From the IMG/VR virus record IMGVR_UViG_3300045974_000247, positions 1 to 58,848 of that record: a stretch of DNA of 58,848 nucleotides; one strand, given 5' to 3'. Source of the DNA: a virus. Below the pieces are notes generated by a model. It searched no databases and was not told the DNA's origin. It saw only the letters and a list, made by a program, of their open reading frames with translations. Below, one piece after another: positions 1 to 58,848 of this stretch (position 1 is its first letter; each line of letters begins with the position of its first letter). Position numbers and translations under genes: made by a program.

Positions 1-127
1 CGTGGCAGGGACGCACCGTGTCGTGGTGAGACGCGCTTTCGCGTATTCGATAGCTCAGAAGCTCGGAAGGTCACCGCTGACCTTGCAGAGAATCGAAGAC
101 CGCCATTCGTACTCAGCCGCCTCTCGG
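1..127. repeat. Left copy of 127-bp terminal direct repeat
   Basis: Identical to 58722-58848. 127 is a common maximal k-mer length of short-read assemblers, so this is probably the overlap of a circular assembly and not a biological terminal repeat. It shows that the contig is closed. Confidence 0.95.
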
Positions 128-2888: not shown

Positions 2889-2893
2889 GTCCC

Positions 2894-3232
2894 TCACAGC
2901 ACGTCCCCCAGGTCGAACTTCGTGGGCGCGTACCGCACCCGGTCCGCGATGATGGCGTCGATGATGTTGCGACCCGTGGCCTTGTCGTCGATGACGAACA
3001 CCCACTGGCCCAGGTCGATGAGCTGGTTGATCATCATCTTCTGGAGGGGCGTGGGCTCCTCCCCCACGCGCTTGTACTCGATGAGGAAGTGCTTGCCGTT
3101 GGGCGCCCAGAACCCTCGGTCAGGCCAGCTCCTCGCGCCCAGCCCGTTCATCTTCCGGACCAAGCAGCCGAGCCGCTTGGCGTACTGGACGTTGTCGTTC
3201 TCAGCGATGCGCTCCGGCTTAGTCTTGGCCAT
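2894..3232 (-). CDS. VRR-NUC domain nuclease
   Basis: 112 residues, the usual size of a stand-alone phage VRR-NUC, a PD-(D/E)XK nuclease that cuts branched or flapped DNA. The catalytic residues are visible: Asp38 in RSWPDRG, then the E-x-K pair in FLIEYKR (Glu52, Lys54), with an N-terminal Glu helix (ERIAEND). It sits with the SNF2 helicase and a zinc-finger gene in one overlapping operon, so it probably processes replication or recombination intermediates. Confidence 0.88.
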   Translation of the reverse strand: MAKTKPERIAENDNVQYAKRLGCLVRKMNGLGARSWPDRGFWAPNGKHFLIEYKRVGEEPTPLQKMMINQLIDLGQWVFVIDDKATGRNIIDAIIADRVRYAPTKFDLGDVL

Positions 3233-3344
3233 GTCGGTCCCTGTTGTGTCGGTCGAGCGCCCGGAGGAGGAGACACCCCGTCAGGGCAGAGATGGAGAGG
3301 CTGAGTAGCCCAGCCGCTGCGAGGCGCAGTATGGAGCTAATCAT
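3219..3344 (-). CDS. 41-residue membrane microprotein
   Basis: ATG overlaps the end of the preceding gene (ATGATTAG). The peptide has one hydrophobic helix (LAAAGLLSLSISALTGCLLL) followed by a charged tail (RALDRHNRDRHGQD), so N-out/C-in insertion is plausible. The hydrophobic part holds an LTGC tetrad that resembles a lipobox. It overlaps the VRR-NUC start by 14 bp. It fills an otherwise empty gap in a gapless operon, which is the main support. Confidence 0.45.
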   Translation of the reverse strand: MISSILRLAAAGLLSLSISALTGCLLLRALDRHNRDRHGQD

Positions 3345-3618
3345 CGAACACCCGCAGGGACGGTCCCATGCCGAGCGACTTGACCTCCAGCTGCTCGAAG
3401 GACACGACCTCGATGCGGCTCCCGTTGACGAGCCGGATGACGTGCCGCGCTCGGGTGGAGCCCCCGACGTGCTGGGCGAAGACCCAGAGCGCGTCAGCGT
3501 TCCATCGGACCCGCTGCACGTTGGGCACGACGATGAGCACCACGGCCCCAGCGGTCTCAGAGGCCATGAGGATGGCCCTGAGGCAGGCTCGGGTTGTCTT
3601 CCCCGTGGACCGGCTCAT
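3337..3618 (-). CDS. Short P-loop protein that stops at Walker B
   Basis: 93 residues. Starts almost directly with a Walker-A-like SRSTGKTT (2-9), has a hydrophobic strand VVLIVVPN, and ends LRVFDD, which looks like the aspartates of a Walker B strand. The chain therefore seems to hold only the first half of a RecA-like fold. No continuation of a helicase or terminase is seen in other frames downstream. It could be a truncated ATPase or a small inhibitor/NTPase family. ATGA overlap with the upstream gene. Confidence 0.6.
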   Translation of the reverse strand: MSRSTGKTTRACLRAILMASETAGAVVLIVVPNVQRVRWNADALWVFAQHVGGSTRARHVIRLVNGSRIEVVSFEQLEVKSLGMGPSLRVFDD

Positions 3619-3821
3619 CGCGCCCCTCCCTTCCGGCGGGGAGGGCGCGCAGAGGGCTGAGGCAGCGGCTCCTCAAGCGTCGGCCACGCGGGGTTGGGGG
3701 GCGTGTACCCGATCAAGAGGGTCGCGCGGCAGGCGCTGTTGGAGCACTCCCAGCGACCCTTCGGGTTGGTGGAGGTTAGTGTCCCCGCCACGCAGATTGG
3801 ACAGGTGTAGCTCGCGCTCAC
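3615..3821 (-). CDS. Zinc-ribbon protein
   Basis: 68 residues from a GTG start overlapping the hemerythrin stop (GTGA). CPIC and CSNSAC form two Cys pairs about 20 residues apart, a rubredoxin-like zinc ribbon, followed by a Pro-rich tail. No specific function recognised. Confidence 0.6.
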   Translation of the reverse strand: MSASYTCPICVAGTLTSTNPKGRWECSNSACRATLLIGYTPPNPAWPTLEEPLPQPSARPPRRKGGAR

Positions 3822-4219
3822 GACAAGACCCCTTCCTTGATCCAACGGGTGACCTTCTGGTCCTCCTCCTTCAGGTGGTACTCTACCCAGGCGCGCAGCC
3901 GCTTGACGAACTCACGCAGCTCCGGCTCCCCGCCCCGCGCCACCCGCGCGGAGTAGTGCGTCCAGACATCGAAGAAGCGCACATGCTCGCGTCGATGCTC
4001 TGCGAGAGCACTCTCTGGGTAGCGGACCTGCTCCATGAGCAGCTCCTCGTCCAGGAAGTGGGTGGTGAAGTGGGACCGGAGCCTGAGCATGGCCACCGCG
4101 ATGCGCCCATCGCTCAGTACCTCGGTCCCTTCCAAGTCGTCCAACACGTCACAGACAGTCTCGTGCTGCCGGTCGATGAGCCCGTTGCCGGTCCTCAGCG
4201 CCTCATTCCATGTCCGCAT
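3818..4219 (-). CDS. Bacteriohemerythrin
   Basis: A 133-residue four-helix-bundle protein that binds O2 (or senses O2/NO) at a non-haem di-iron centre. All seven ligands of the family are in place: His19 (IDRQH), His54 and Glu58 (HFLDEE), His75 and His79 (HRREH), His115 and Asp120 (HLKEED). Spacing and length match bacterial single-domain members (130-150 aa). It sits inside the minus operon between a zinc-ribbon gene and a Cas4-like nuclease, with no signal peptide, so it acts in the cytoplasm. Possible jobs are oxygen delivery, sequestration of iron/O2, or protection of iron-sulphur enzymes; these are inferences. Confidence 0.93.
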   Translation of the reverse strand: MRTWNEALRTGNGLIDRQHETVCDVLDDLEGTEVLSDGRIAVAMLRLRSHFTTHFLDEELLMEQVRYPESALAEHRREHVRFFDVWTHYSARVARGGEPELREFVKRLRAWVEYHLKEEDQKVTRWIKEGVLS

Positions 4220-4247: not shown

Positions 4248-4991
4248 CTAGAATCGGCAGGGGCCTCCGTTGTTGGCGCTGAACGCGCACCAGCGACAGT
4301 AGTTGCCGGGGCGCGGGTTGAACTTCGGGTCGTTCATCATCTTGGACGCGCGCTTGTCGAGCGCCTTCTGCGCCTTGGGCAGCTGCACCAGCGTCAACTC
4401 CCCGGCCTCAGAGGTCACCGTCTGCCCCTGGTCCGTGAAGATGAGCTCTGCGCGGGTCCGCTCCCCGAAGCCAGCCGTGAGCGAGGCCACCGCGTAGCCC
4501 ATCAGCTGGTCGTCGAAGACCTCTCCGGGACGCAGTTTCCCGGTCTTCCAGTCCTTCACCACGGACAGCTTCGGCTCGGGGAAGTGGAGCACGTCCACCT
4601 TGAAGCGCACGTACACGTCCTCATCGGTCCAGCCGGTCATCTTCCAGTCCTGAGTGAACGCCAGGTTGAGCTCCACGCGGACCTTCTGCTTGGCGTAGTC
4701 GGCCTTGAGCAGGCGCAGCTCCTTGGCGACCTTCTTGAGGTCGGGGTGGATGGTCTTCCGCTGCCCCCGGATGTACATCTCTGCCTCCTCGTGGAGGGCT
4801 GTCCCCCGGGCGAGCGCGGGAGCCTCGGGGGGCTTCTCACGACCGCACTTGTCGCAGGTGCCCCGCTTGTTCAGCCGCCCCTTGAAGCACTTGGGGCAGA
4901 GGTAGTCCACGCGCTCATACTTGGTCCTGCGTGGGCACTCCTCATACGCCTTCAGCGCGGAGGGGGACCACGTCTTGATGACCGACGACAT
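4248..4991 (-). CDS. Cas4/RecB-like PD-(D/E)XK exonuclease
   Basis: About 247 residues from the ATG at 4991, which has AGGAG 7 bases upstream; a GTG one codon earlier is the alternative. The N-terminus WSPSALKAYEECPRRTKYE is typical of the family, as are the catalytic strands with VDVLHF and VKDWKTGK (Asp and Lys of the D-x-K signature). Cys in the N-terminal ECP motif and a C-terminal YCRWCAFS...GGPCRF could hold a Fe-S cluster as in Cas4/AddB. An extra Cys4 zinc knuckle (CPKC, CDKC) is inserted at about 32-50. Likely processes DNA ends in replication or recombination. It overlaps the polymerase stop codon. Confidence 0.85.
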   Translation of the reverse strand: MSSVIKTWSPSALKAYEECPRRTKYERVDYLCPKCFKGRLNKRGTCDKCGREKPPEAPALARGTALHEEAEMYIRGQRKTIHPDLKKVAKELRLLKADYAKQKVRVELNLAFTQDWKMTGWTDEDVYVRFKVDVLHFPEPKLSVVKDWKTGKLRPGEVFDDQLMGYAVASLTAGFGERTRAELIFTDQGQTVTSEAGELTLVQLPKAQKALDKRASKMMNDPKFNPRPGNYCRWCAFSANNGGPCRF

Positions 4992-6823
4992 CACTTGACT
5001 CCTTTCAGGTCGCCCCAGTTGGGGCCTTGCTTCGCATCGCTGAGCATCGGGACATCGAACTCAACAGACTCCATCGCCTCCCGGAGCACCTCCAGCTCCT
5101 TCGCCATGGCGCCCTTGGGCGCGCTGACGTTGATCTCGTCGTGGACCGTGACCAAGAACCGGCCATCCTTCCGCACCTCGTTGTACCTGATGACTGCCTC
5201 CTTGGTGCAGTCGGCAGCGGAGCCCTGGATGAGGTAGTTGAGGAGCTTGTACTCAAACGTCTGCTCCCGTCCGTTCCGTACCACCGGCTCCTCGCAGTAG
5301 TACAGCCTCCCGCCCCACGTGCGGATGGGCTTGTCCTCCTTGGCCTTCCTCCGGAGCCCCTGCTCCAGGGCCCGGAGCCCGGGGATGGCCGAGCGCTGAG
5401 CGCCCTTGAGGAGCCGCGCCTGCTCGACCGAGACACCGAGCGCCTTGCTCAGCTTCCCCATCCCCATCCCGTAGAGCATGCCGAAGTTCAGGACCTTGAC
5501 CGCGCGACGCTCCAGCTGCGTGCCGGTGATGCCGGCGATGGACGCCTTCACGAAGTCATGCACGTCCATGCGCGGCTCCTCCCGGTACGCAGTCAGGAGG
5601 AGGTCATCCTCAAAGTGCGCCAGGATGCGCAGCTCCTGCTGGTTGTAGTCCCGGTGACCGAACAGCTGACCCTTGTCGGGGAGGCAGTAGCGTCGGATGA
5701 GCGGCAGCTCGGGGAGCTTCGGGACCTTCGGGTGGCTGTACCCGTCACCCTTGTCGTCCCACGTCTTGGGGATGTTCTGGAAGTTGGGTGAGCAACTCAG
5801 TCGCCCAGTCCGCGCGCCAGCGCCTCCCCCCGCGTGGTAGCTCTGCCGCACCTGGTTCCAGTTGGTGAAGATGTAGCCGTTGTTCCTCTCGGCCACCTCG
5901 GCCCACGGCCCCATGAACGTGCGCATCGCAGTGCCGAGCCGGGAGCGGTACTGAAGCGCCACGTACACGCGCGGGTCCTTGAACATCCCCACGCTCAGGT
6001 TCTCCTTCGCCACAGAGGGCTTCCCCGTGTCCGTGGGCACGAAGTCCTCCTCAGCGACGTGCCCCCGCTCGATGAGCGCTGCGGCCAGCGACTGGTCGGA
6101 GTCGATGTTGATGTCTCCGAGCTGCTTGGCGAGCCAGCGGTCCACGCTCGCCTGGGCGAGGGTGTACGCCTTGATGTCGGCCTGGAGCTTGGGCAGGTCC
6201 ACGCGGATGCCCTCCGACTCGTTGGCGAGGAGGACGGGGAGCAGCCGACGCTCCCGGTCATACGCCAGCTTCATCTCCCGGTCCAGCTTGGGGTACAGCT
6301 TGTCGTGGAGCTTCTTCGTGCGGACCACGTCACCGATGGCGTAGGGCCCGACGATGGACGCGGGGACCTTGGAGATGAACGCTCCGGCTCCCTTGCGCCC
6401 CTTCGTGAGCCCGTGGGCGATGACCCAGTCGGCCACGGCATCCTGCTCCTCGGGCTCCATGCCGAGCAGCCGCTTGGCGCTGGGCTTCAACGAGAGGTTG
6501 GGGGCGTGGGGGTCGGAGAGGAACAGGCTGAACATCGTGTCGTGGAACCGCTCCCAGGGCGGGAGCGCGAGCCCCAGATGGGCCTGGGCCACATCGAGGT
6601 CGAACTTGGCGTTGTGGAAGAGCAGCTCCTTGGTCTTCCAGAGGTCGGTGAGCACGCGCTTGGCCTTGGCCAGCGTCGTGTTGTTGCCCTCGGGGTGCCC
6701 CCACGCCAGGTACACCGGCTTGCGGCCGGGCTCCAGGATGGCGACTCCAACGGGCTTGGGAGGGTAGTTGGGACGCCCCTCGATGGCGTCGGTCTCAAAG
6801 TCCACGACGGTCACAGCGGCCAT
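4991..6823 (-). CDS. polA: Family A DNA polymerase with 3'-5' exonuclease
   Basis: 610 residues, the usual size for a phage Pol I-like replicase without the 5' nuclease domain. Exonuclease motifs: DFETD (8-12), HNAKFD (70-75), Y161..D165. Polymerase motifs: TGRLS..NFQNIP near 339-352, motif A DYNQQE from Asp392, motif B RRAVKVLNFGMLYG (439-452), motif C VHDE (560-563). Phe447 occupies the position of E. coli Phe762; in viral ecology Tyr or Phe there is linked with virulent phages. If the base-modification proposal is right, this enzyme would also have to accept the altered dNTP. Confidence 0.95.
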   Translation of the reverse strand: MAAVTVVDFETDAIEGRPNYPPKPVGVAILEPGRKPVYLAWGHPEGNNTTLAKAKRVLTDLWKTKELLFHNAKFDLDVAQAHLGLALPPWERFHDTMFSLFLSDPHAPNLSLKPSAKRLLGMEPEEQDAVADWVIAHGLTKGRKGAGAFISKVPASIVGPYAIGDVVRTKKLHDKLYPKLDREMKLAYDRERRLLPVLLANESEGIRVDLPKLQADIKAYTLAQASVDRWLAKQLGDINIDSDQSLAAALIERGHVAEEDFVPTDTGKPSVAKENLSVGMFKDPRVYVALQYRSRLGTAMRTFMGPWAEVAERNNGYIFTNWNQVRQSYHAGGGAGARTGRLSCSPNFQNIPKTWDDKGDGYSHPKVPKLPELPLIRRYCLPDKGQLFGHRDYNQQELRILAHFEDDLLLTAYREEPRMDVHDFVKASIAGITGTQLERRAVKVLNFGMLYGMGMGKLSKALGVSVEQARLLKGAQRSAIPGLRALEQGLRRKAKEDKPIRTWGGRLYYCEEPVVRNGREQTFEYKLLNYLIQGSAADCTKEAVIRYNEVRKDGRFLVTVHDEINVSAPKGAMAKELEVLREAMESVEFDVPMLSDAKQGPNWGDLKGVK

Positions 6824-8832: not shown

Positions 8833-9069
8833 TTACTTGGGCACCCCGGGTGGCTGAGCGATGCGCTCTGTCTCGACCTCGATGAGCTTGTCGAGGAAGT
8901 GCCGCGCCTTGGCGAGGTCCTGGAGCCCGTTCTTCTTGCGCCAGCGGTACACGTACTTGATGATCTGGGCCTCCATGTACGGGATGTCGTTGGCGAGCAC
9001 GAAGTCCCAGTGCTGAATCTCGGAGCGGTAGTGCTCCCCGCCCACCTGCGTCTCATTGGCCTTGCTCAT
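8833..9069 (-). CDS. DUF3310 protein (SaV-like nucleotide kinase family)
   Basis: 78 residues from the ATG at 9069 (ATGA overlap); the upstream extension is Pro/Arg-rich and rejected. Shows the family signature: GGEHYRSEIQHWDFVLAN, then helix IKYVYRWRKKNGLQDLAKARHFLDKLI. Members are annotated as nucleotide kinases, but the chain has no P-loop and direct evidence is thin. The neighbours (nucleotidase, TS-like enzyme) fit a role in DNA precursor supply. Confidence 0.88.
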   Translation of the reverse strand: MSKANETQVGGEHYRSEIQHWDFVLANDIPYMEAQIIKYVYRWRKKNGLQDLAKARHFLDKLIEVETERIAQPPGVPK

Positions 9070-9593
9070 CGGAGCTTCTCCCATTCGTAGCTGAGGTGTT
9101 CGCACATCGACGACACTCCCTTGATCTCGTGCCGCGCGGTCTCCAGGTAGCTCAGCGCGCGGATGAACATGAGGCTGAGCCTCTGGGTCTTGTTCCCCAG
9201 CCGACGCTCCCGGAGGCACGTCCAGACCAGGTCGAGGGTGTCCGCTGTCTTGACGATGAACCCCTCCAGGTCCCCCAGCATCGGGATGGGGAGGGAGTGC
9301 TCAGCCACGAACACCTCCTCCATGCGGTCGAGGAGCGCGGACATGTCGGGGCTGGCGCGCTTGACGGGAGCGGGGATGTCCCCCGTGTCCACCTCTGGAG
9401 CGTCGTGGTAGAGGAGTGCCTGGAGCACGGGCCCGGGAGCTACCCCGTTGAGCTCGCACAGCTCCATCGCCACGACCATCGAGCCGTACACGTGGCGGGC
9501 GATGGTATGCTGCTCCACCGTCCGCACCGTGTGCAGGCGCACGAGGTCCCCGGCTTCGTACAGCGCCTCCATCCGCTTCAGGTTGGCCTTCAC
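9066..9593 (-). CDS. HD-domain 5'-deoxynucleotidase, YfbR-like
   Basis: 175 residues from a GTG start (GTGA overlap). HD metal site: His29 (TVEQHTIAR), His63-Asp64 (LLYHDAPE) followed by the YfbR hallmark DTGDIPAPVK, and a later Asp in KTADTLDLV. YfbR removes the 5' phosphate from deoxynucleoside monophosphates. Phages use such enzymes to drain unwanted dNMPs or provide dUMP precursor. It directly follows the TS-like gene, fitting a joint role in pyrimidine pool control. Confidence 0.88.
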   Translation of the reverse strand: MKANLKRMEALYEAGDLVRLHTVRTVEQHTIARHVYGSMVVAMELCELNGVAPGPVLQALLYHDAPEVDTGDIPAPVKRASPDMSALLDRMEEVFVAEHSLPIPMLGDLEGFIVKTADTLDLVWTCLRERRLGNKTQRLSLMFIRALSYLETARHEIKGVSSMCEHLSYEWEKLR

Positions 9594-10609
9594 TTGCCCC
9601 TCCTCGACAGCCACTCCAACGCTGCGTGACGCCAGTCGAGGGCAGAGCACTTGCGCGCCTCGGGTGGACTCTTGAGTCGCCAGGCTTTCCACAGGGGCTT
9701 GACGACGTTGTCCCAGAACGGGGTCTGGTACTCCTCCACGCTCGGGTCGATGCCGTGGTCCCAGAGCCGGAAGAAGTGCTGCATGTCGAGGTCCCACTCG
9801 ATGCAGTCCGCGGCCATCGGGTAGTGCGCGGCCAGCCCGCGCGTGTAGAGGTCCGGGGCAGGCTTGACGAGCTTGGTCGCTTCGTAGACCGGCCCCCGCT
9901 CCTTGACGCGGCTGTACACGGCTCCCCCGGGCCCCTCGGTGTAGACGTGGAGGCTGTCGCTGACCTGGGTGTAGGGCCCGACCTCGATGCCGAGCTTGTT
10001 GGCGATGTACTCCTGGAGCATCGACATGTGCACGACGTTGGCCCCGTAGGCTCCCCAGAGCATGTCGTTGGAGCGGTTGCACACCGTCATGTGCAGCTGG
10101 TCGGCCCGCACCTTGAAGTAGATGTGCGTGTTACAGGGCAGGTCCCGACTGGTCGAGCCGCCTGCCCCCTCCGAGCTGACTGCGTCCCCGTTGGGCGACC
10201 ACATCGCCACGACTGCGCGCCGGTCCTCCGGGTTCTTGAACAGCGCGTGGGTGACGTGGGTGAGCTGGTCGAACCCGAACCACTCGCGCCAGCGGAACCC
10301 GTAGGCTCCGTGGAACAGCTCCCCATCGTCGCTGAACTCCGCCATGCGGGGGTTGAAGACCCGGAGGAACCCGACATCGTTGCGCCCCTCCAGCATCCAG
10401 AGCCCCTCAAAGAAGTGGAAGAAGGGGTTGGCGTCGCGCTCCGGGGAGAACAGGACCCGTTCCTGGGGCCGGCTGTACACGGTGCTGACGGGCTGAGGGA
10501 CCTCGATGACTGGGCCTCCCCGGGAGTGACGCTCCACCCCCTGCTCGGCCATGAGCGCCATGCCGAGCGGGAGGGCTTCGTTGACGTTGCGGACGTTGAG
10601 GACGATCAC
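9590..10609 (-). CDS. Thymidylate synthase-family enzyme (TS or dUMP hydroxymethylase)
   Basis: 339 residues from the GTG at 10609 (GTGA overlap); the ORF extends to 10759 without a better start. Core of the TS/pyrimidine hydroxymethylase family: FEGLWML (Glu68, Trp71), RRAVVAMW (Arg130-131), catalytic Cys159 in DLPCNTH, CNRSNDMLWG (Arg179, Asp182), and Asn191 where TS binds the uracil ring. The Asn argues for dUMP rather than dCMP as substrate. Both TS and dUMP hydroxymethylase fit; the adjacent hypermodification-type gene makes the second worth testing. Confidence 0.85.
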   Translation of the reverse strand: MIVLNVRNVNEALPLGMALMAEQGVERHSRGGPVIEVPQPVSTVYSRPQERVLFSPERDANPFFHFFEGLWMLEGRNDVGFLRVFNPRMAEFSDDGELFHGAYGFRWREWFGFDQLTHVTHALFKNPEDRRAVVAMWSPNGDAVSSEGAGGSTSRDLPCNTHIYFKVRADQLHMTVCNRSNDMLWGAYGANVVHMSMLQEYIANKLGIEVGPYTQVSDSLHVYTEGPGGAVYSRVKERGPVYEATKLVKPAPDLYTRGLAAHYPMAADCIEWDLDMQHFFRLWDHGIDPSVEEYQTPFWDNVVKPLWKAWRLKSPPEARKCSALDWRHAALEWLSRRGK

Positions 10610-10830
10610 TTGGTCTCCTGGAACCCGTCGCACGAGCAGTCGCCGCACGGACCCTTGTCCCCGCGCTGGCGGGTGTAGAGGTGGTCCCCGAGCCGGTGGC
10701 CGCACTCGCACGTCTTCGCGCACGTCGCGCACTTGGCCGGGTCCTCGGCATGTGAGCACTGGACCGGCTCGACAACGGGGGTGGTCTGGGGCACTTCGGA
10801 CACTGCGTCAGGCTTCGTGATCTTGGCCAT
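10606..10830 (-). CDS. Small Cys/His zinc protein
   Basis: 74 residues with two parts: CATCAKTCECGHRLGDH and GDKGPCGDCSCDGF. The C-x-CGH...H...G-x-C-x-C arrangement recurs in the lysis-region gene at 49054-49233. Lies between the TS-like gene and the glycosylase-fold gene, overlapping the former (GTGA). Probably a zinc-binding accessory protein. Confidence 0.65.
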   Translation of the reverse strand: MAKITKPDAVSEVPQTTPVVEPVQCSHAEDPAKCATCAKTCECGHRLGDHLYTRQRGDKGPCGDCSCDGFQETK

Positions 10831-10832
10831 CG

Positions 10833-11693
10833 CTACTCCTCCTTGGGGGGTTGGTACTTGGAGCGTGGGCGACCCTCCCCGAGTCGCACGCGCTCATACT
10901 TGTCCAGCTCACACAGGCAGAACTGAATGTCGTGGGCAGTGAGCCGCCCTCCTCCTGGGAATGTCTCGAGCCACCGTGGCTGAATCTTCTCCAGCAGCGC
11001 GCGGATGAGGACCACGCCCTCGTCTGTACGGATGCCCTTCGTGAGCGGGGCCTTGCGCAGCCGGTTGAGTCCGCGCCTTGCCCCCGGGCCGGTGGGCGTC
11101 CAAGTCTCTGCGTCCTTCACCGGGTGGCGCCGCCAGAGCAAGTAGTCCTGGAGCACCTCCTTCGCCATGAACCCAGCGCCACCGAACCCGTGGACCTCCT
11201 GCATGACGTTGAAGCCAGCCTCCCACGTGTTGGTTGCCTCGATGGTGCTGACGATGTCCTCGGCACGGTCCCAGAGCGGCGCCAGGTACTCGTCCCCGAC
11301 CACCTTGTACTTGCGGACGCCTGCGTCACCGCCCCTGATCATGTACGCGCCGGTCCAGAACGTCTTGCCGGCGCGCTCGCACTCCTCCTCCGCGCGCTTG
11401 ATGCGAGCGGTCGAGTGAGCGCCCAACCAGCCGAGCGCGTCAGACGCCGCCACCGTGCCCGTGAAGCGTCGGAGCGCGCAGTTGTAGAGGGCCACGTGGA
11501 GCGGGGCCTCGCTGTACTTCTGATACACCTTGAGGAAGGCCTGCGTGGTCCGGTCGTGGACGCGCTGGACGTTGGTGAACTTGTACGTCTGGAGAATCTT
11601 GTCCTTGGTCCACGGCGCTGCCTGACCTCCGAGCTTGCGGAGCCGGATGTGCTCGCGCTCCTCGATGTACTTCCACAGTGGCTTGGCGTTCAC
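10833..11693 (-). CDS. Thymine-hypermodification type DNA-glycosylase-fold protein (aGPT-Pplase / HMUDK-helical-like)
   Basis: 286 residues. N-terminal signature EREHIRLRK..G..APWT (12-29) then YKFTNVQRVHDRTTQ (37-51), a helix-hairpin-helix segment VHGFGGAGFMAKEV (167-180) as in DNA glycosylases, and C-terminal LCELDKYERV.LGEGRPR. This is the pattern of the families linked to alpha-glutamyl/putrescinyl thymine synthesis, which transfer a group to activated 5-hydroxymethyluracil in DNA. No P-loop is present, so any kinase step must be elsewhere. Starts the 11693-to-883 gene block, 17 bp from a palindrome. Family assignment is from remembered patterns; substrate unknown. Confidence 0.65.
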   Translation of the reverse strand: MNAKPLWKYIEEREHIRLRKLGGQAAPWTKDKILQTYKFTNVQRVHDRTTQAFLKVYQKYSEAPLHVALYNCALRRFTGTVAASDALGWLGAHSTARIKRAEEECERAGKTFWTGAYMIRGGDAGVRKYKVVGDEYLAPLWDRAEDIVSTIEATNTWEAGFNVMQEVHGFGGAGFMAKEVLQDYLLWRRHPVKDAETWTPTGPGARRGLNRLRKAPLTKGIRTDEGVVLIRALLEKIQPRWLETFPGGGRLTAHDIQFCLCELDKYERVRLGEGRPRSKYQPPKEE

Positions 11694-11713
11694 GTAAACG
11701 TCCTTTCTCTGGC

Positions 11714-11729
11714 TAGGGGGTTCCCCCTA
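11714..11729. promoter_or_regulatory. Palindrome between divergent genes
   Basis: TAGGGGG-TT-CCCCCTA, perfect 7-bp arms, in the 70-bp gap between the minus gene ending its start at 11693 and a plus-strand small ORF at 11764. Its position fits an operator or a promoter element for one or both. Confidence 0.5.
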
Positions 11730-11763
11730 TAGTGGTTGGTGCGGGCAGGCGTAGTCTTTCTCA

Positions 11764-11913
11764 ATGACCTACCAAGTTGTTGTCGCCGCCCAGAACAAGA
11801 ATGTTGTCGTCAAGGTTGACGCCTCCAACGAGCAGTCCGCGAAGGAGATTGCGAAGTGGCTGGTGGCGCACGCCCAGCACCTCCAGGCGCACGGGGTCCA
11901 AGCGAAGAAGTAG
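11764..11913 (+). CDS. 49-residue plus-strand ORF inside the minus operon
   Basis: Starts MTYQVVVAAQNKN and ends QAHGVQAKK. Composition is balanced and protein-like (Val, Ala, Lys, few Pro/Arg), with GC3-rich codons like real genes here, and a strand-helix layout. No clear ribosome binding site (CTTTCTCA before ATG). It overlaps the 3' part of the minus gene 11810-12208 tail-to-tail, so at most one of the two is well constrained there. Confidence 0.45.
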   Translation: MTYQVVVAAQNKNVVVKVDASNEQSAKEIAKWLVAHAQHLQAHGVQAKK

Positions 11914-12208
11914 CGTCACGGGGCGCCAGAGCCTCCTTGAGCCTGAGCAGGGGTACGGCCAGGTGCGCTACCATACCAAGCGGGTCATCAGGAGCAGCCG
12001 CCACCTCGTCGAGCACGTCCTGTGCCGCCTTGCGCAGTCGAGTGATCTCCTTGCTCGCGCAGTCGCAGTCGGTGTATCCCTCGCAGCCCTCCTCGTGGTA
12101 GCTCTCGGGGGGCGCTCGGTTGCGCGCGTCCTCCACACACCCCGGACAGGGCAGCTCCGAGCCCGGGGGCCGGTTGTGTCGGGTGCAACCGTACACGCTC
12201 TTGGTCAC
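11810..12208 (-). CDS. Cys-rich hypothetical protein with poor C-terminus
   Basis: 132 residues from a GTG (GTGA overlap with the upstream stop). The first half looks real: CTRHNRPPGSELPCPGC, then CEGYTDCDC, a possible two-zinc module, and a helix KEITRLRKAAQDVLDEVAA. The last about 35 residues (SLGPRAPGGAGRAPPATSQSPS) are antisense to the plus-strand ORF at 11764 and look non-native, so the true 3' end or the reality of that tail is doubtful. Confidence 0.5.
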   Translation of the reverse strand: MTKSVYGCTRHNRPPGSELPCPGCVEDARNRAPPESYHEEGCEGYTDCDCASKEITRLRKAAQDVLDEVAAAPDDPLGMVAHLAVPLLRLKEALAPRDATSSLGPRAPGGAGRAPPATSQSPSRTARWRRQP

Positions 12209-12402
12209 GACATCACCAGGGGCCGGTCCTTGCGGTCCGGGTGCTGCCCGCACCACTCGGTGGGGCGCGCGGGGATGCGGATGGGGATGATCTGGACCTG
12301 TCCCGCCCCCTGCGGGATGGGCATGGCTCCGGGAGGATTGAGGCGGCACTCGCCCCCGCCCAGCGGGTAGAAATACGGGCACGTCTGGCACGTTGCGGAC
12401 AT
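12205..12402 (-). CDS. Small Cys-cluster protein
   Basis: 65 residues: CQTCPYF, GECRLNPP, then EWCGQH, four Cys in the order C-x2-C...C...C that occurs in a common group of small phage and proteobacterial proteins and could bind zinc or Fe-S. Stands 3 bp after the dehydrogenase stop codon. Function unknown. Confidence 0.65.
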   Translation of the reverse strand: MSATCQTCPYFYPLGGGECRLNPPGAMPIPQGAGQVQIIPIRIPARPTEWCGQHPDRKDRPLVMS

Positions 12403-12405
12403 GGG

Positions 12406-13134
12406 CTACCTCGATGCGTCGAACATCGACGCGATGGTCTCATCGATCAGGCGTGCGTTCTCGCGCACGCAGTGCCCCCCAATGGGGCCCGGCATGTAGC
12501 TCAACCAGGGGCGCGCGACCTCGGGCCGTCCGAGCTTCGCATACCCCTCGTTGTACGTCTGGTTGGCGTGCGTGTAGACATCGGCCAGCTCCACGCCGTG
12601 CTTCTTCGCCTGCTCGGCGCACCAACGGTTGACGAGGATCATCATCCCGTACTGCGTCGTGTCCATGAGCTTCAGAAGCTCGGTGGTCTCGGTGTTGGGC
12701 ATGATGTACGTCGTCACCCCCACGACCTGGAACGCTCTGGCGATGTCCTCAGCCTCCGGGCCCGCGATGTACTTGACGAAGCTCTGGATGCCGCGCGCGA
12801 GATGCGGGTGCGTCCCCCTGATGGGGGAGTGGTTGACTCCGAGCTTGCGACACGTACCCACCGGCACCGACGAGTGGATGACGGTGCGGTGCGGCTGGAA
12901 CAACTCCTCGTACAAGCGGACCTGGTCGAGGAACTGCGGCCCGTGGTACGGGAAGCAGATGTGCAGCTCGTCAGCCAAACCCTTCACGCGGATGCCCTGC
13001 GGTGGGTCATGTAGCACCCCCCCAATGACTGCCTGGAGCCCCCGACCAACCTCCCCCGCTCCCACGATCACTCGCTCCATGACCCACCCTTTCTCATCCG
13101 TGACCCTGCGTGTCTCTTCCGTGTGCAGACTCAT
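12406..13134 (-). CDS. Nucleotide-sugar dehydrogenase-like protein (UDP-Glc/UDP-ManNAc DH family, short)
   Basis: 242 residues from the ATG at 13134 (GGAGG 4 bases upstream); ATG at 13080 is an alternative. Rossmann start GAGEVG at 25-30, substrate-domain helix NTETTELLKLMDTT (147-160), and GPIGGHC with Cys222, the catalytic Cys motif of UDP-ManNAc dehydrogenases. Cellular enzymes are 400 aa or longer; here the chain ends soon after the Cys, so the C-terminal domain is missing. It may be a trimmed phage form oxidising or reducing a sugar nucleotide. A 199-bp gap separates it from the epimerase gene. Confidence 0.72.
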   Translation of the reverse strand: MSLHTEETRRVTDEKGWVMERVIVGAGEVGRGLQAVIGGVLHDPPQGIRVKGLADELHICFPYHGPQFLDQVRLYEELFQPHRTVIHSSVPVGTCRKLGVNHSPIRGTHPHLARGIQSFVKYIAGPEAEDIARAFQVVGVTTYIMPNTETTELLKLMDTTQYGMMILVNRWCAEQAKKHGVELADVYTHANQTYNEGYAKLGRPEVARPWLSYMPGPIGGHCVRENARLIDETIASMFDASR

Positions 13135-13333
13135 GTCGCCTCCCAGCCTCCCGGTTCCCCCGGGGGCTTCGTTCGATTCCCGCCCCGACCCTCCGAGAGG
13201 CCCCTGGCGCTCAGCCTCCCCGCAGCCCCGTAGGCTGGCAGAGGGCCCTACCCCCTCCACGAGGACCCTCAGACCCCCATCCGCACAGTGCCTAGGGGCT
13301 CCGGATGGGGGGTAGACCCCCCCGAAAGGGTAC
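13135..13333. promoter_or_regulatory. GC-rich spacer with a 19-bp element shared with 50277-50295
   Basis: The only large gap between 12402 and 18519 in the minus operon. Bases 13281-13299 (CCGCACAGTGCCTAGGGGC) match 50277-50295 exactly in inverse orientation. Both copies read GCCCCTAGGCACTGTGCGG along the direction of transcription of the adjacent genes. Other related words (GGGGCCTCTCGG, GCCAGGGGCC) also occur in both. It may hold a processing site, terminator or promoter. Confidence 0.55.
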
Positions 13334-14278
13334 TCACGCCAGCCCGGTCTTCCGGTACCAGCGCACCGTCTCTCGCAGACCCTCTCGCAGGCCGACTCCT
13401 GCCTTGAGACCGAGCCACTTGCGAGCACGCGTCACGTCAGCCACCGAGAGCCTGATGTCTCCGCCACGGAATGCCTCCTGCTGGCACGACGTGCGCTTGC
13501 GCTCGCTGGGCGTCAGCTGCTCCTCCAAGAGGTCGGAGAGCTGGAGGAGCGTCGTGCCCTTGCCCATGGCGACGTTGTACACGAGGTTGACGTGCTTGGT
13601 CGTGGCGGCGAGGAGGTTGGCGGTGACCACGTTGCTGACGTACGTGAAGTCACGCGTGGTCGTCCCATCCCCATAGATCACATACGGCTCTCCCGACAGC
13701 ATCCTCTTGATCCACCGGGGGATGACGGCGCTGTAGCTGCCGTCCGGGTCCTGGCGCGGACCGTACACGTTGAAGTACCGCAGCCCGACCGTGTCCATGC
13801 CGTAGCTCTTGCCGTAGGCCAGCGCGTAGCTCTCCACGCACTGCTTGCTCGCTGCGTAGGGCGACAGCGGGGCCCCCACGATGACCTCGCGCCGCTTGTC
13901 CCCCAGAGCGTCCCCGTACACGGAGGAGCTGGAGGCGTACACGAAGCGGCGCACCCCGTGACGCCTGGCGTGCTCGAGAACTCGCAGGGTCCCATGCGTG
14001 TTGTTGAGGTGAGTCGTCATGGGGTCCGCGATGGACCGCGGCACGCTGGGGAGCGCGGCCTGGTGGAAGATGACGTCCACGCCGCTGAGGTCGAAGTTGT
14101 CGTGGACGATGTCGAGCGGGAGCACGTGGAGCCGCGCGTTGCCCTCGTGACCCGTGAGGTTCTCCTTCCTCCCGGTCGAGAGGTTGTCGATGACGATGAC
14201 CTCCCAGTCGCGCGCGAGGCAAGCGTCAACGAGATGCGACCCGATGAACCCGGCACCGCCGGTGATGGCGACCCTCAC
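13334..14278 (-). CDS. NAD-dependent sugar-nucleotide epimerase/dehydratase
   Basis: 314 residues from a GTG (GTGA overlap). Extended short-chain dehydrogenase: GGAGFIG (7-13) for NAD, ASSSSVYG (115-122), and the active-site Tyr141-x3-Lys145 (SPYAASK). The SVPRSIADP...N...GTLRVLEHARR stretch resembles UDP-GlcNAc/UDP-Glc 4-epimerases of the WbpP type. Likely converts a UDP-hexose or UDP-N-acetylhexosamine. Clustered with a PIG-L deacetylase, a dehydrogenase and a glycosyltransferase, so the product is probably a donor for that transferase (inference). Confidence 0.88.
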   Translation of the reverse strand: MRVAITGGAGFIGSHLVDACLARDWEVIVIDNLSTGRKENLTGHEGNARLHVLPLDIVHDNFDLSGVDVIFHQAALPSVPRSIADPMTTHLNNTHGTLRVLEHARRHGVRRFVYASSSSVYGDALGDKRREVIVGAPLSPYAASKQCVESYALAYGKSYGMDTVGLRYFNVYGPRQDPDGSYSAVIPRWIKRMLSGEPYVIYGDGTTTRDFTYVSNVVTANLLAATTKHVNLVYNVAMGKGTTLLQLSDLLEEQLTPSERKRTSCQQEAFRGGDIRLSVADVTRARKWLGLKAGVGLREGLRETVRWYRKTGLA

Positions 14279-14637
14279 TTGGCACGCTCCTTCTTGCAGG
14301 CCGGCTGAGCCGGTGGGTTGAGGTTGAGACAGCTGATGCCGAAGCTCGTGACGTAGCAGACGATGCCGGGCCGGTTGAGGTCCTGGACCCGGTAGACCTG
14401 ACCCACCACGCCATCCGAGAAGATGACGTGCGCGGCTCCCGGGGGCCCGTCGTCCAGCGTGGCCTTGGAGCAGCCGATGAGCCCGCCCAGCAGGACGAGG
14501 AGGCAGAGGAGGATGAAGAGGAGCGCGGGCCAGTTGGGGCGCGCCCTCTGCCGGATGAGCTTGTCGATGCACACGGGGCAGGTCCCCGCCGTGCCGCAGA
14601 CGAGGCAGTTGGGCTTGATGACGGTCTTGTCGCTCAT
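14275..14637 (-). CDS. Membrane protein with N-terminal zinc ribbon
   Basis: 120 residues. CLVC and CPVC at about 11-22 form a zinc ribbon, followed by one strong membrane helix (ALLFILLCLLVLLGGLIG) and an outside/inside domain of about 70 residues with two Cys (VCYVTS, ISCLN) that could pair. ATGA overlap with the deacetylase gene. Function unknown; it might anchor the sugar enzymes, but nothing proves it. Confidence 0.6.
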   Translation of the reverse strand: MSDKTVIKPNCLVCGTAGTCPVCIDKLIRQRARPNWPALLFILLCLLVLLGGLIGCSKATLDDGPPGAAHVIFSDGVVGQVYRVQDLNRPGIVCYVTSFGISCLNLNPPAQPACKKERAK

Positions 14638-15215
14638 CGCGCCTCCACGATCAACTCCGGGTTGTGCTTGAGGCTCTCTGGCGGGTTGAAGTGCCAGAAG
14701 CGCCCCTGGTCCTTGAAGAGTCGGATGTGCTTGTACTTGTGGATGGTCGGCTTGAAGTAGCTCACCACGCGCATCCCCGACAGCAGGCGGTTGATCTCGG
14801 GGCTGTTGACCGTCATGGCGGCATACGGCTGGTCGAGGTAGTACTGGAGCCAGAAGTGCTGCGCTCCCGTGTGCCAGGCCTCGACAGCCTCGCGCACCTC
14901 GATATGGTCCGGGTGCTTGGGGGCGAGTGGAAGGAGGATGTGGCCGTGGTCCCCGCTGAGGTGGCTTGAGAGGAAGCAGCGGATGGCCTTGGTGCCGTCC
15001 CCCGGCTTGCCCCCGCCCCTCCGCTCCTTCGCCTCCAGGCCGCTCCACGAAGCCCCCATGGCCTTGGCGTATGCCTCTGCCTCGGGGCCGCGCTTCCTCG
15101 TGCCGGAGTAGACGGTGATGATGTGCACCGGGATGTTGTCCTTGATCCAGTTGGCGATGTGACCGCCCAGCGACAGGAAGGCGTCGTCAGCGTGAGGCTC
15201 GATGATGTGGATCAC
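14634..15215 (-). CDS. PIG-L/LmbE-family deacetylase
   Basis: 193 residues from a GTG (GTGA overlap). Zinc site: PHADD at 7-11 (His8, Asp11) and HPDH at 101-104 with His104. PIG-L enzymes remove N-acetyl groups from GlcNAc-bearing substrates. With an epimerase, dehydrogenase and glycosyltransferase around it, an amino-sugar pathway is suggested. The substrate might be a UDP-sugar or sugar already on DNA or protein. Confidence 0.88.
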   Translation of the reverse strand: MIHIIEPHADDAFLSLGGHIANWIKDNIPVHIITVYSGTRKRGPEAEAYAKAMGASWSGLEAKERRGGGKPGDGTKAIRCFLSSHLSGDHGHILLPLAPKHPDHIEVREAVEAWHTGAQHFWLQYYLDQPYAAMTVNSPEINRLLSGMRVVSYFKPTIHKYKHIRLFKDQGRFWHFNPPESLKHNPELIVEAR

Positions 15216-15664
15216 GAGTCATCCTCCGTGTCGAAGGGGATCAACGACAGGTTGGGGGTGTAGGGGAGCTGATGCACCGCCAAGCCCAGTTGACGAGCGG
15301 CAGCGACCAGTCTCTGCATCGGGTTGCGTTCCAGCTCCTTCTTTGCGTCGCTGAGGGCGCGTCGGGTGCCGTTGAGTTCATCTCGCAGCCGGTACACCTC
15401 GCTGATCAGCGCGCCCACCACGGACCCTCCGCGCTCTGCCCAGATGGCCAGCTGTGCGTCGTTGAACTTCTCCGGCGCTGCCGAGAGGGGGGCGAAGACA
15501 ACCGTGCCCTGTTGCAGCTCCAAGACCTCCTCAGGGGTCCAGTCCCCGTATGCTTCCAACGTCAGCTGAACCGGGCCAGAGATAACAGTCGCCTTCTGGC
15601 CCGCAGCGGTTCGCACGACCTGTGTGGGGCGGTTCATCCGCACCATGTCGATGACGCCCCTCAT
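15212..15664 (-). CDS. Hypothetical protein
   Basis: 150 residues, ATGA overlap with the glycosyltransferase gene. The middle carries a helix-rich region with a predicted coiled coil (EVYRLRDELNGTRRALSDAKKELER). The segment TPEEVLELQQGTVVFAPLSA is mixed alpha/beta. No family recognised. Its place between the deacetylase and the glycosyltransferase links it to the sugar cassette only by position. Confidence 0.55.
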   Translation of the reverse strand: MRGVIDMVRMNRPTQVVRTAAGQKATVISGPVQLTLEAYGDWTPEEVLELQQGTVVFAPLSAAPEKFNDAQLAIWAERGGSVVGALISEVYRLRDELNGTRRALSDAKKELERNPMQRLVAAARQLGLAVHQLPYTPNLSLIPFDTEDDS

Positions 15665-16491
15665 AGCCCCTCCGCGCCGAGCTTGAACGCCTTCTTCCAT
15701 GCGACCTTGACGTCGTTCATCGTGTCGCTCTCCATCCCGCCCCACGCCTTCTTCTGCACCACCGTCACGACCTCGGGGTACAGCGCGCCGAGCTTCGCTG
15801 CCGTGTCGCTCTGGAGCTGGGCCGTCCGGGCCCCCGCGCACCCTCCCGGAGCGTTGGCCGGTCCCGGGCTCGCGCGGTAGACGAGGGACACGACGTTGGG
15901 CTCGCCAGCGAGGAGCAGCTGGAGCGTCATGTTGAAGTCGGACATGGGCGACCCCTTGCCGATGCCCCTGGTGAACCGGGCCCCCGTGTTCATGACGGTG
16001 GGCACGTTGTAGGCCAGGCAGCAACCGAGCGCGCGGCCCACCTCGATGCTGTCGTGGAGGTTGGTGTCGTAGTCCCAGTGATGCTGGCGCATCCCCCACG
16101 CCGCGTGCGCGTAGTCCTTGAGGGATGTCTCGAGCCAGCCCAGCCCATCCAGCCACTGCTGCTCAGAGGTCGCAGTGAGAAAGCGCGGGTTGACCCCAGG
16201 GGTCATCGGCTGGCGGACGAGGAGCGTCGTGTCGTCATCGAGGAGGACGATGTGCTTGTGGCGCTGCTTGACTGCGTACTCCAGCATCCAGTCGCGCGTG
16301 GCGGCGAGCGTCATGCCGGTGGGGCGGTTGGCGGGGCACTCGATGGCCCCGAACCTTCCCTGCGCGAGGTGCGCCTTGACCTCCTCCTTGGGAACGAACA
16401 GCGTGGTGTTCTTCTTGGCGAGCGCGGGGAGGCTGTCCCACGTCTTCTGCTTCGACACTCGGCCCCTGGTAGCAATGTAGACTTGGATCAT
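15661..16491 (-). CDS. TAGT-like GT-A glycosyltransferase
   Basis: 276 residues from the ATG at 16491 with GAGAG upstream. Starts MIQVYIATRGR as in the TET-associated glycosyltransferase (TAGT) family. NRPTGMTLAATRDWMLEYA leads to the metal-binding HIVLLDDD (Asp85-87), a region with the GRALGCCLAYN stretch, and MSDFNMTLQLLLAG (183-196), the family's second acidic motif. TAGT enzymes are associated with sugar transfer onto modified bases in phage DNA; relatives also act elsewhere. Here it would use the product of the neighbouring sugar-nucleotide enzymes. Family match is from remembered pattern, not a search. Confidence 0.72.
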   Translation of the reverse strand: MIQVYIATRGRVSKQKTWDSLPALAKKNTTLFVPKEEVKAHLAQGRFGAIECPANRPTGMTLAATRDWMLEYAVKQRHKHIVLLDDDTTLLVRQPMTPGVNPRFLTATSEQQWLDGLGWLETSLKDYAHAAWGMRQHHWDYDTNLHDSIEVGRALGCCLAYNVPTVMNTGARFTRGIGKGSPMSDFNMTLQLLLAGEPNVVSLVYRASPGPANAPGGCAGARTAQLQSDTAAKLGALYPEVVTVVQKKAWGGMESDTMNDVKVAWKKAFKLGAEGL

Positions 16492-16498
16492 GGCACTC

Positions 16499-18550
16499 TC
16501 AGAACTTCCCGCCGTGGAAGAAACCATCCCAGTGCTCGGCGCACGCCTTGGGACCTTGCTTCAGCCAGTGCTCGCTGTTGCGGACAATCCAGAGCTTCTG
16601 GTTGCCCTGCTTCGTCATGACGGGGAGCCCGTCCTTGTACGCTCTGCGGAACCCGGCTGACTTGAGCTCCCGGGCGAACCCGTTGATGGTGGAGCGGTGG
16701 AAGTCCCCCATCGGATTGAAGAGCGTGTGGAGCTGCGTGGTCGTGAACAGACAGCACTTCTCTGCCGCCAGCGCGTTGCCGAGCGGCATGAGGGTGCGGT
16801 GCGGGTCCTCCTTGAGGTCGTGGACCCAGCGGCCCAGGTCGGACTTGTTGTCCACGATCATGTCGCGCTTGGCCTTGGTCTGGAAGGCGGGGCCCTTGGG
16901 GTTGAAGTCGGAGATGTCGAGGTGTTCCAGGTAATACCTCAGGTGGGCGGTGCCTCCGCGCTTGAACCGCCACGTGTCGAACTCATGGTAGAACCGGAGG
17001 GGCGCGGGGTGACTGGTGACCTCGTGTACGAAGAAGCGGCGGTCAGAGTCCTGGAGGAAGAAGGCGTTGGGCTCGTTGGACGTGAAGAAGTAGTTGATGC
17101 AGTCAGGGATGGTCACCAGGGGCATGTACTTGGCGTTGATGTTGACGCGCTCCTGGGTGATCAGCGCCTTGAGCCGGTTGGTGTCGGTGCGCCGGTCCGT
17201 GCCCGTGATCTCCTCCCCCACGATGAACTGTTTGTTCCTCGCCCACTCGTTGAAGCTGCCGTGAATCTCGGCATCCCCGATGACTCCCCCGTTCGTACCA
17301 TAGATGTCCTTGAGCGTCAACCCCAGGAGCGTCTTCCCCGTGCCGTGCGACACGCCCCAGACGAGCACGCCGCTGAAGAGCTTGACGCCCGGGTGCTGTA
17401 GCGGGTACGCTGCCCACTTGAGGAACCACTCGCGCGCTCCCGGCTCCGCTCCCGCGAAGATGTGGTCCAGGAGGTCGTGGAAGGGCGTGACGTCCCCCTT
17501 GACTGACTCAACCCCCCAGCCGCGCCAGAGATTGCAGTCACGCGCCTCCGTCACGAGCGGCTGGCCGGGGGCGTAGGTGAGGTGGTTGAGCGTGAAGCGA
17601 CCCGGCCACTCCAGCCACGCCTTGGCGAGGGGCTTGGTCTTGACCTTCCCCTCCGAGTCGCGCGTTGCGTACTTGCGGTCAGCGTAGGACACCGTCAGGA
17701 AGTCATGGACCGACAGCATCTCGTTGGTCTTGCGCTCCAGCAGCAGCGGAGGATAGCGGATAAGCAGCACCTCCTCGTTCATCGACCAGAGCGCCGCAGC
17801 CTCTTCGTACACGGGGGCTTCCTCGACCAGCGACTCCAAAGCCTCAACCGAGTGCTGGAGGAGGAAGTCATCGAGCCCCACCTTGGCGCCGTCAGGTCCG
17901 GGCGGGAGGGCCAGGAGCTTCGGGAGGGCTCCGCGCCGCATCAGCTCATACGCGAGCTTGCGCTGAGCGGTCAGCGCATCCGGCTTGGTGCCCACGTCGC
18001 TGTCCCAGATGATCGCAACGGGTCGCTGGTTCCACCTGGCCTCCTGGAGCACCGGGAGCAGCTCGGGCATGCCGCGCTTGGCCGCGCGAAACACGTCCAC
18101 TCCCCCCAAGCCGATGCACGCGACCCCCCGAGCGCATGCGACTGCCGCCTTGATCTCCCCCTCCGTGATGTAGACGGTCTTGGTGGGGTCCTGGAGCACC
18201 GCGTGCCACCTCTCCTTGAGCAGCGGCGGCAGGTAGACCTCGTTGAGCGTGCCGCCCGGTTGCCAGTAACGTGGAGGGCGCGCGAGGTTGGCGGCGAAGC
18301 CCGTGGGCGCGCCTAGGTAGCGGACCCGGAAGAAGGAGGTGCGCTTGCCCTGGTCATCGAAGTAGGGGATGCGCATGGACGGGCGGTTGTCTTGGGAACC
18401 GAGCCGCTGGGTTTCTGCGCTGCTGAGTTCCTCGAATCCCAGGAGCTTGGCCTGGGCATCGGTCAGGCCTGACTCGGCAAGCCGGACCCGCATCAGGGCG
18501 CGCGACCCTGCTGCCGCGTTACGTGCTCCGCTTGTCATTGCCACGCCCAT
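16499..18550 (-). CDS. Primase-helicase (DUF3854 TOPRIM plus DUF5906 helicase)
   Basis: 683 residues. N-terminal DUF3854 TOPRIM: YITEGEIKAA (Glu130) and IIWDSDVG (Asp183, Asp185), used for primer synthesis or DNA cleavage. C-terminal helicase: Walker A GVSHGTGKT (399-407), then IVGEEITG as Walker B and INYFFTSNEPNAFFL as sensor. The two-part layout matches phage primase-helicases that act with a family A polymerase. The start at 18550 is preferred because GGGAGG precedes it; it overlaps the regulator gene by 32 bp. A start at 18538 is possible. Confidence 0.88.
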   Translation of the reverse strand: MGVAMTSGARNAAAGSRALMRVRLAESGLTDAQAKLLGFEELSSAETQRLGSQDNRPSMRIPYFDDQGKRTSFFRVRYLGAPTGFAANLARPPRYWQPGGTLNEVYLPPLLKERWHAVLQDPTKTVYITEGEIKAAVACARGVACIGLGGVDVFRAAKRGMPELLPVLQEARWNQRPVAIIWDSDVGTKPDALTAQRKLAYELMRRGALPKLLALPPGPDGAKVGLDDFLLQHSVEALESLVEEAPVYEEAAALWSMNEEVLLIRYPPLLLERKTNEMLSVHDFLTVSYADRKYATRDSEGKVKTKPLAKAWLEWPGRFTLNHLTYAPGQPLVTEARDCNLWRGWGVESVKGDVTPFHDLLDHIFAGAEPGAREWFLKWAAYPLQHPGVKLFSGVLVWGVSHGTGKTLLGLTLKDIYGTNGGVIGDAEIHGSFNEWARNKQFIVGEEITGTDRRTDTNRLKALITQERVNINAKYMPLVTIPDCINYFFTSNEPNAFFLQDSDRRFFVHEVTSHPAPLRFYHEFDTWRFKRGGTAHLRYYLEHLDISDFNPKGPAFQTKAKRDMIVDNKSDLGRWVHDLKEDPHRTLMPLGNALAAEKCCLFTTTQLHTLFNPMGDFHRSTINGFARELKSAGFRRAYKDGLPVMTKQGNQKLWIVRNSEHWLKQGPKACAEHWDGFFHGGKF

Positions 18551-58721: not shown

Positions 58722-58848
58722 CGTGGCAGGGACGCACCGTGTCGTGGTGAGACGCGCTTTCGCGTATTCGATAGCTCAGAAGCTCGGAAGGTCACCGCTG
58801 ACCTTGCAGAGAATCGAAGACCGCCATTCGTACTCAGCCGCCTCTCGG
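58722..58848. repeat. Right copy of 127-bp terminal direct repeat
   Basis: Exact copy of 1-127. Marks closure of the circular contig and should be trimmed from counts of unique sequence. Confidence 0.95.

Follow-up and report, generated by a model that had tools for sequence, protein, structure and literature searches.

The window analysed here, the whole of IMG/VR virus record IMGVR_UViG_3300045974_000247 (58,848 nucleotides), carries on its minus strand, between 9066 and 16491, a candidate locus for making and modifying 5-hydroxymethyluracil (5hmU) in phage DNA. Its genes encode a thymidylate synthase (TS)-family enzyme, a YfbR-like nucleotidase, an HMUDK_hel protein, a TAGT-family glycosyltransferase (GT), a sugar-nucleotide epimerase, a PIG-L-type deacetylase and a possible nucleoside diphosphate (NDP)-sugar dehydrogenase (Table 1), and every gene that a first-pass annotation had reported for this region was recovered at the same coordinates. 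With its 127-bp direct terminal repeat, the window represents a complete virus genome of 58,721 unique bases. The locus lies within a co-directional run extending from the primase gene (16499-18550) down to the early genes, in which many gene ends overlap or nearly abut (for example TS/YfbR, and a 74-aa open reading frame (ORF)/TS). The PolA gene of this run is a conserved neighbour across the surveyed class of loci.

Table 1 Coordinates of the locus genes and associated features in the window
Feature	Position	Strand	Evidence
TAGT-family DNA glycosyltransferase (predicted)	15661..16491	-	GT-A fold, invariant DDD; PF20691 29.1 bits, cut-off 27.5
PIG-L/LmbE-type N-deacetylase, phage subfamily	14634..15215	-	PF02585 4.4e-7, 30.9 bits, cut-off 28.2
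UDP-GlcNAc(A) 4-epimerase-class NDP-sugar epimerase	13334..14278	-	PF01370 7e-66
Putative short NDP-sugar dehydrogenase (weak)	12406..13080	-	Motifs GAGEVG, VIHSSVPVG, GGHC
HMUDK_hel protein, predicted 5hmU-DNA handling partner	10833..11693	-	PF18723 2.4e-34
74-aa Cys-rich ORF, no assigned function	10606..10830	-	Translationally coupled, 4-bp overlap with TS
TS-family dUMP 5-hydroxymethylase (predicted 5-hmdUMP maker)	9590..10609	-	PF00303 9.5e-20
YfbR-like HD 5'-deoxynucleotidase	9066..9593	-	PF12917 2.8e-16
PolA-family replicative DNA polymerase	4991..6823	-	PF00476 3.7e-56; same operon direction
Direct terminal repeat, left copy	1..127	.	Identical to 58722-58848
Direct terminal repeat, right copy	58722..58848	.	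Identical to 1-127

The TS-family enzyme is 43-47% identical to those of phages M6, Yua and CN2; SPO1-type and ViI-type enzymes rank next, and ordinary ThyA is much more distant. Numbered as in the E. coli enzyme, the window protein retains the catalytic Cys and dUMP-binding set (C146, R126/127, R166, D169, H207 and Y209) and the uracil-reading N177, together with the hydroxymethylase (HMase)-type N147 and D143 found in SPO1 and ViI-like enzymes, a pattern unlike that of ThyA (H147, L143) or T4 gp42. N147 and N177 are common to all 90 TS proteins of the surveyed class. From homology and these residues, the enzyme is predicted to convert dUMP to 5-hydroxymethyl-dUMP (5-hmdUMP), in agreement with the earlier annotation, which had noted the uracil-reading Asn and proposed 5hmU production by a TS-type hydroxymethylase. 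The YfbR call was likewise confirmed by its Pfam match; the gene probably starts at a GTG at 9593, overlapping the TS stop, has the same neighbour in M6-like phages and probably serves to drain dTMP pools.

The thymine-hypermodification signature assigned earlier to the third protein was identified as the HMUDK_hel domain, while the DNA-glycosylase fold attributed to it was weakly backed. Searches of the PDB with its single sequence and with a profile gave no matches, and a structural comparison of its AlphaFold2 model (pLDDT 94.3) returned one suggestive neighbour, the 5-PmdU glycinyltransferase of PaMx11 (8z2n; E 0.02, probability 0.91, TM-score 0.32), which would indicate remote kinship at best. 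In phages MP1412 and CN2, the HMUDK_hel gene adjoins a separate 5-hmdU DNA kinase gene (PF18748), and the amino-acid:DNA transferase (ADDT) is a third gene. Since the ADDT of M6-like phages belongs to another family and is encoded by its own gene, a transferase role for HMUDK_hel itself was rejected.

The missing kinase and the sugar-related genes

No 5-hmdU DNA kinase (PF18748) or ADDT (PF18724) was found anywhere in the complete genome by a search that recovered both in the control phage MP1412, and neither a pyridoxal-phosphate (PLP) enzyme nor a radical S-adenosylmethionine (SAM) protein was found beside the locus. The terminal repeat rules out that the kinase is missing only because the genome is incomplete. 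These results extend to the whole genome the earlier remark that no obvious kinase was present, and support its suggestion of a route other than the described kinase route, with a glycosyltransferase present instead. That annotation had left the added group as either an amino sugar or an amino-acid-like moiety; the sugar branch is supported, and the amino-acid branch was rejected, the whole genome having neither kinase nor ADDT and HMUDK_hel being separate from ADDT. The same absence places the locus outside the M6/ViI pathway, and from its gene content it is predicted to be a variant of phage 5hmU-derived hypermodification that works by glycosylation. The order HMUDK_hel, TS, YfbR, PolA, common to M6-like phages, would suit an M6-like amino-acid-type thymidine hypermodification made by a kinase and a transferase that are divergent and either unrecognised or supplied by the host, but the negative searches above make this most improbable.

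The predicted glycosyltransferase passes the PF20691 cut-off narrowly and is matched over its full length by phrog_842 (beta-glucosyl-HMC-alpha-glucosyltransferase, 2.4e-28). Foldseek placed its AlphaFold2 model (pLDDT 93.1) among GT-A enzymes, with similarity to TarP and GnT-I (~1e-5), both of which use UDP-GlcNAc, and its invariant residues are R11, D85-87, R93, R153, D185, G216-217 and R222. The GT-A fold is consistent with the placement of T6 TAGT as GT2-like (PMC13216743). We retain the TAGT-like assignment. A first impression that the window TAGT was a near-orphan, based on a single-sequence tblastn returning one phage record, was reversed by alignments and hidden Markov models (HMMs); when contigs from prokaryote genomes were scanned for TAGT, there were no matches.

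Among the sugar-related genes, the calls of a sugar-nucleotide epimerase and a PIG-L deacetylase were both upheld. The nearest PDB relatives of the epimerase are WbgU (1.7e-73) and WbpP (1.1e-69), with GalE at only ~1e-24, and its best NCBIfam match, TviC, is under the cut-off. It thus belongs to the WbgU/WbpP class, which acts on N-acetylated UDP-sugars, unlike the GalE-type epimerase of locus L127. The deacetylase carries the metal-site motifs PHADD and HPDH, with H8, D10, D11 and H104 invariant in its subfamily, and a profile comparison linked it to teicoplanin pseudoaglycone deacetylase (1.5e-6), which removes acetyl from a sugar that the acceptor already carries. Related PIG-L genes were found at six viral loci; five of these combine GT-B, PIG-L, HMUDK_hel and TS in a single cluster, with PIG-L between GT-B and HMUDK_hel, and the sixth is divergent and lies near an epimerase. 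The UDP-sugar dehydrogenase proposed earlier shows the motifs listed in Table 1, but Pfam gave no match, BLAST gave no significant match to E. coli Ugd, the NCBIfam NDP-sugar dehydrogenase model TIGR03026 scored far under its cut-off (E 0.006), and a search of viral contigs found no relatives. Considering the recurrence of PIG-L beside glycosyltransferases, the teicoplanin-deacetylase match and the class of the epimerase, we favour an N-acetylhexosamine that is later de-N-acetylated by PIG-L as probably the sugar on 5hmU in this phage.

Partners of HMUDK_hel across viral and bacterial loci

TAGT- and HMUDK_hel-seeded scans of viral contigs, together with PIG-L-seeded loci, yielded 100 non-redundant clusters that were annotated with custom HMMs; the TAGT-seeded half of this census is biased by design. 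HMUDK_hel and TS occur together in 88 clusters, accompanied by TAGT in 43 (window included), one of three GT-B types in 31 and a kinase in 15; one cluster (L140) has both kinase and glycosyltransferase and none has neither. The HMUDK_hel-seeded half alone comprises 14 kinase-only and 41 GT-only clusters, one with both and none with neither, giving Fisher p values that are tiny but ignore relatedness. In all 75 loci compared, glycosyltransferase and HMUDK_hel share a strand, with a median gap of 212 bp and 70 loci within 1.5 kb. Where loci were inspected closely, the commonest GT-B type (25 clusters) is flanked by HMUDK_hel and TS. HMUDK_hel is the gene nearest to the glycosyltransferase or kinase in nearly all surveyed loci. 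Lack of a kinase is no oddity of a single phage: most of the HMUDK_hel loci sampled have a glycosyltransferase in its stead. The same layout is found, as a minimal set, in the cultured Brevibacterium phage LuckyBarnes, where HMUDK_hel (gp38), two TAGTs (gp39 and gp40) and an HMase-type TS (gp41) stand in a row near PolA (gp45), and neither kinase nor ADDT was found in the whole record.

In a quick HMUDK_hel tree with several long branches, the window's included, kinase- and GT-bearing members were interleaved, with ~13 changes of partner label by parsimony. Kinase-bearing L093 falls within a well-supported, mostly GT-bearing clade, and GT-B-bearing L169 stands beside the M6-type kinase phages MP1412 and CN2. 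The simplest reading is an exchange of enzymes around a conserved HMUDK_hel-TS core. HMUDK_hel looks like a general 5hmU-DNA factor and not a part of the kinase.

Epimerases and glycosyltransferases of the kinds encoded in the window serve polysaccharide synthesis in bacteria and in other phages, and the glycosyltransferase, epimerase and PIG-L could in principle modify a host surface polysaccharide or a virion protein, leaving plain 5hmU in the phage DNA. We consider this very unlikely, as the window TAGT is part of the replication operon, with HMUDK_hel/TS on one side and the primase on the other, its family is known to act on DNA, and the combination with HMUDK_hel and hydroxymethylase recurs in the 43 clusters above.

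Several surveyed loci carry additional genes. In L166 (IMGVR_UViG_3300033143_001775), HMUDK_hel and TS are separated by APS-kinase-like and sulfotransferase-like genes (2034-3019) that adjoin PIG-L and a GT-B, possibly indicating a sulfated sugar on 5hmU. A radical SAM/SPASM protein is inserted in the HMUDK_hel-GT-TS clusters L007, L018, L041, L050, L060, L089, L092 and L123, hinting at further tailoring of sugar or base. A recurring "YGxSWxxRG...RKxDRIE/L" domain follows, or is fused to, the 5hmU-pathway TS in L202 (gp41 C-terminus), L166 (4775-5167) and L179 (9921-10742). An HMUDK_hel scan of prokaryote genome contigs gave 23 loci, and on Hyphomicrobium-type and other alphaproteobacterial contigs (L179:7881-9910, L180, L181, L187 and L194) HMUDK_hel forms an adjacent pair with an HMase-type TS, next to recA and a UDG-like gene in L179; no kinase or glycosyltransferase was found at these five loci. 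These pairs possibly reflect cellular 5hmU metabolism or a remnant.

A proposed kinase-free route

We put the probability that the locus makes glycosylated 5hmU in phage DNA by a kinase-free route, with an amino sugar proposed as the added group, at about two in three. In this scheme, the TS-family enzyme would make 5-hmdUMP from dUMP while YfbR lowers dTMP, and 5-hmdUTP would then enter DNA through the phage PolA polymerase, replacing part of the thymine. HMUDK_hel, which nearly all sampled 5hmU clusters have in common, would engage 5hmU in DNA and work with whichever enzyme acting on the 5hmU hydroxyl is present, namely a P-loop kinase in M6-type phages and, in the window, TAGT, which would place a sugar on the hydroxymethyl oxygen. 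The pairing of HMUDK_hel with either enzyme is observed in the loci; contact and catalysis are predicted. An epimerase of the UDP-GlcNAc/GalNAc class would supply the donor, and PIG-L would strip the N-acetyl group. The resulting amino sugar would bear a primary amine, a convergence with the amines present in the DNA of M6, ViI and phi W-14. The product would resemble base J, but would be formed by a hydroxymethylase acting on the nucleotide and not by a thymine oxidase. A broader proposal, that HMUDK_hel is a universal 5hmU-DNA adaptor for interchangeable hydroxyl-acting enzymes, that repeated phage swaps of the P-loop kinase for GT-A or GT-B enzymes have produced a widespread class of glycosyl-5hmU genomes, and that the sugar here is a de-N-acetylated hexosamine, is tentative, its chances falling slightly short of even.

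A number of observations weigh against these proposals. The TAGTs proven so far use, to our knowledge, glucosylated 5-hydroxymethylcytosine (5hmC) and not 5hmU. PIG-L and epimerase are missing from most related TAGT clusters, which makes the amino-sugar part of the proposal specific and less certain, and both genes could serve another purpose. Nearly all phylogenetic pairs drawn go in the expected direction, but only three independent kinase/GT pairs lie on well-supported branches, too few for significance on their own. L140 carries kinase and GT-B together, and the five bacterial chromosome loci described above hold HMUDK_hel and TS without kinase or glycosyltransferase, as does the similar L199, with a weak TS. 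HMUDK_hel may also be dispensable, because purified M6 5hmdU DNA kinase was active in vitro without it (unpublished result cited in PMC6449724).

This last result, with the partnerless bacterial pairs, would fit glycosylation of 5hmU by TAGT alone, with HMUDK_hel in an unrelated role as a 5hmU-DNA reader, protector or repair factor and the PIG-L, epimerase and dehydrogenase supplying or trimming a neutral or acidic sugar. HMUDK_hel was also not found beside TAGT and TS in the available stretches of L037 and L039, nor in the whole record of ctUhy936, and the dehydrogenase, weakly supported as it is, could yield a uronic acid. We regard this alternative as unlikely, since the position of HMUDK_hel as the closest gene to glycosyltransferase or kinase in nearly all loci suggests joint work, and PIG-L recurs beside glycosyltransferases.

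Elsewhere in the genome, a 93-aa ORF (3337-3618) with a Walker-A-like GKTT and a terminal DD resembles a truncated terminase/helicase ATPase and had no match in a Pfam search, and a hemerythrin HHE-domain gene lies in the early region (3818-4219; PF01814 3.2e-11). The structural module (19909-50059) differs in origin from the replication module, its TerL being closest to that of Marinobacter phage AS1 (49%), which marks the genome as a mosaic.

Relation to known systems and implications

The window shares a dUMP hydroxymethylase, YfbR, HMUDK_hel and PolA (identities 30-47%) with the M6/ViI thymidine hypermodification systems (HMase, 5-HMUDK, ADDT, PLP/radical SAM), but lacks kinase and ADDT and has a glycosyltransferase, PIG-L and sugar genes instead. 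Its TAGT is of the same family and GT-A fold as the T2/T6 enzyme, which acts on DNA (PF20691; PMC13216743), whereas the T-even context is 5hmC with a dCMP hydroxymethylase and a first glycosyltransferase, and the window has a uracil-type hydroxymethylase; a T4 beta-GT search of the window, run without a positive control, gave no match. Base J, the glucosyl-5hmU of kinetoplastids made by JBP and JGT, is glycosylated 5hmU in DNA, as predicted here, but arises by oxidation of T in DNA, whereas the window is predicted to make 5hmU as a nucleotide through its TS-type enzyme and to add an amino sugar. A search of the window for a TET/JBP thymine oxidase (PF12851) gave no match, nor any positive-control match.

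Among phages, Yersinia phage YerA41 has a measured ~1 kDa oligosaccharide-like thymidine substitution, its group unidentified (PMC9023294, PMC7354516), and, compared by description only, a gene set resembling that of the window (TS, 5'-deoxynucleotidase, epimerase and polysaccharide deacetylase), although its masses are not those of hexose or hexosamine. Bacillus phage SP-15 (PMC5977210) combines a sugar-bearing uracil derivative with sugar-nucleotide genes, as predicted here, but its base is 5-dihydroxypentyluracil with glucose and phosphoglucuronolactone. The HTVC023P-type pelagiphage cluster also has TS, aG/PT-PPlase1, 5'-deoxynucleotidase and a putative beta-glucosyl-HMC-alpha-glucosyltransferase near PolA; in the sections of the 2022 report consulted, it is read as an M6-like system of possibly broader function, with no PIG-L or epimerase noted and no kinase replacement stated (PMC9599517).

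As of 2019 there was no report of glucosylated 5hmdU from phages (PMC6449724), and 288 of 753 phages were recently found to carry TAGT without an alpha- or beta-GT, the function of these "solitary TAGTs" being left open (PMC13216743, 2026). What appears new here is the replacement of the kinase by a glycosyltransferase as an explanation, since earlier papers, in the parts consulted, noted TS, aGPT-Pplase1 and TAGT together in pelagiphages, and solitary TAGTs, without offering it. The survey probably delineates a large set of phages with glycosylated 5hmU, and gives a candidate role to some solitary TAGTs. It also shows the name given by Pfam, "5-hmdU DNA kinase, helical domain", to be misleading. 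New enzymes that glycosylate 5hmU would help in the enzymatic labelling of DNA and in the study of type IV restriction. The proposal is testable, as the kinase-free layout with a glycosyltransferase is seen in dozens of viruses from environmental samples and also in LuckyBarnes, a phage in culture.

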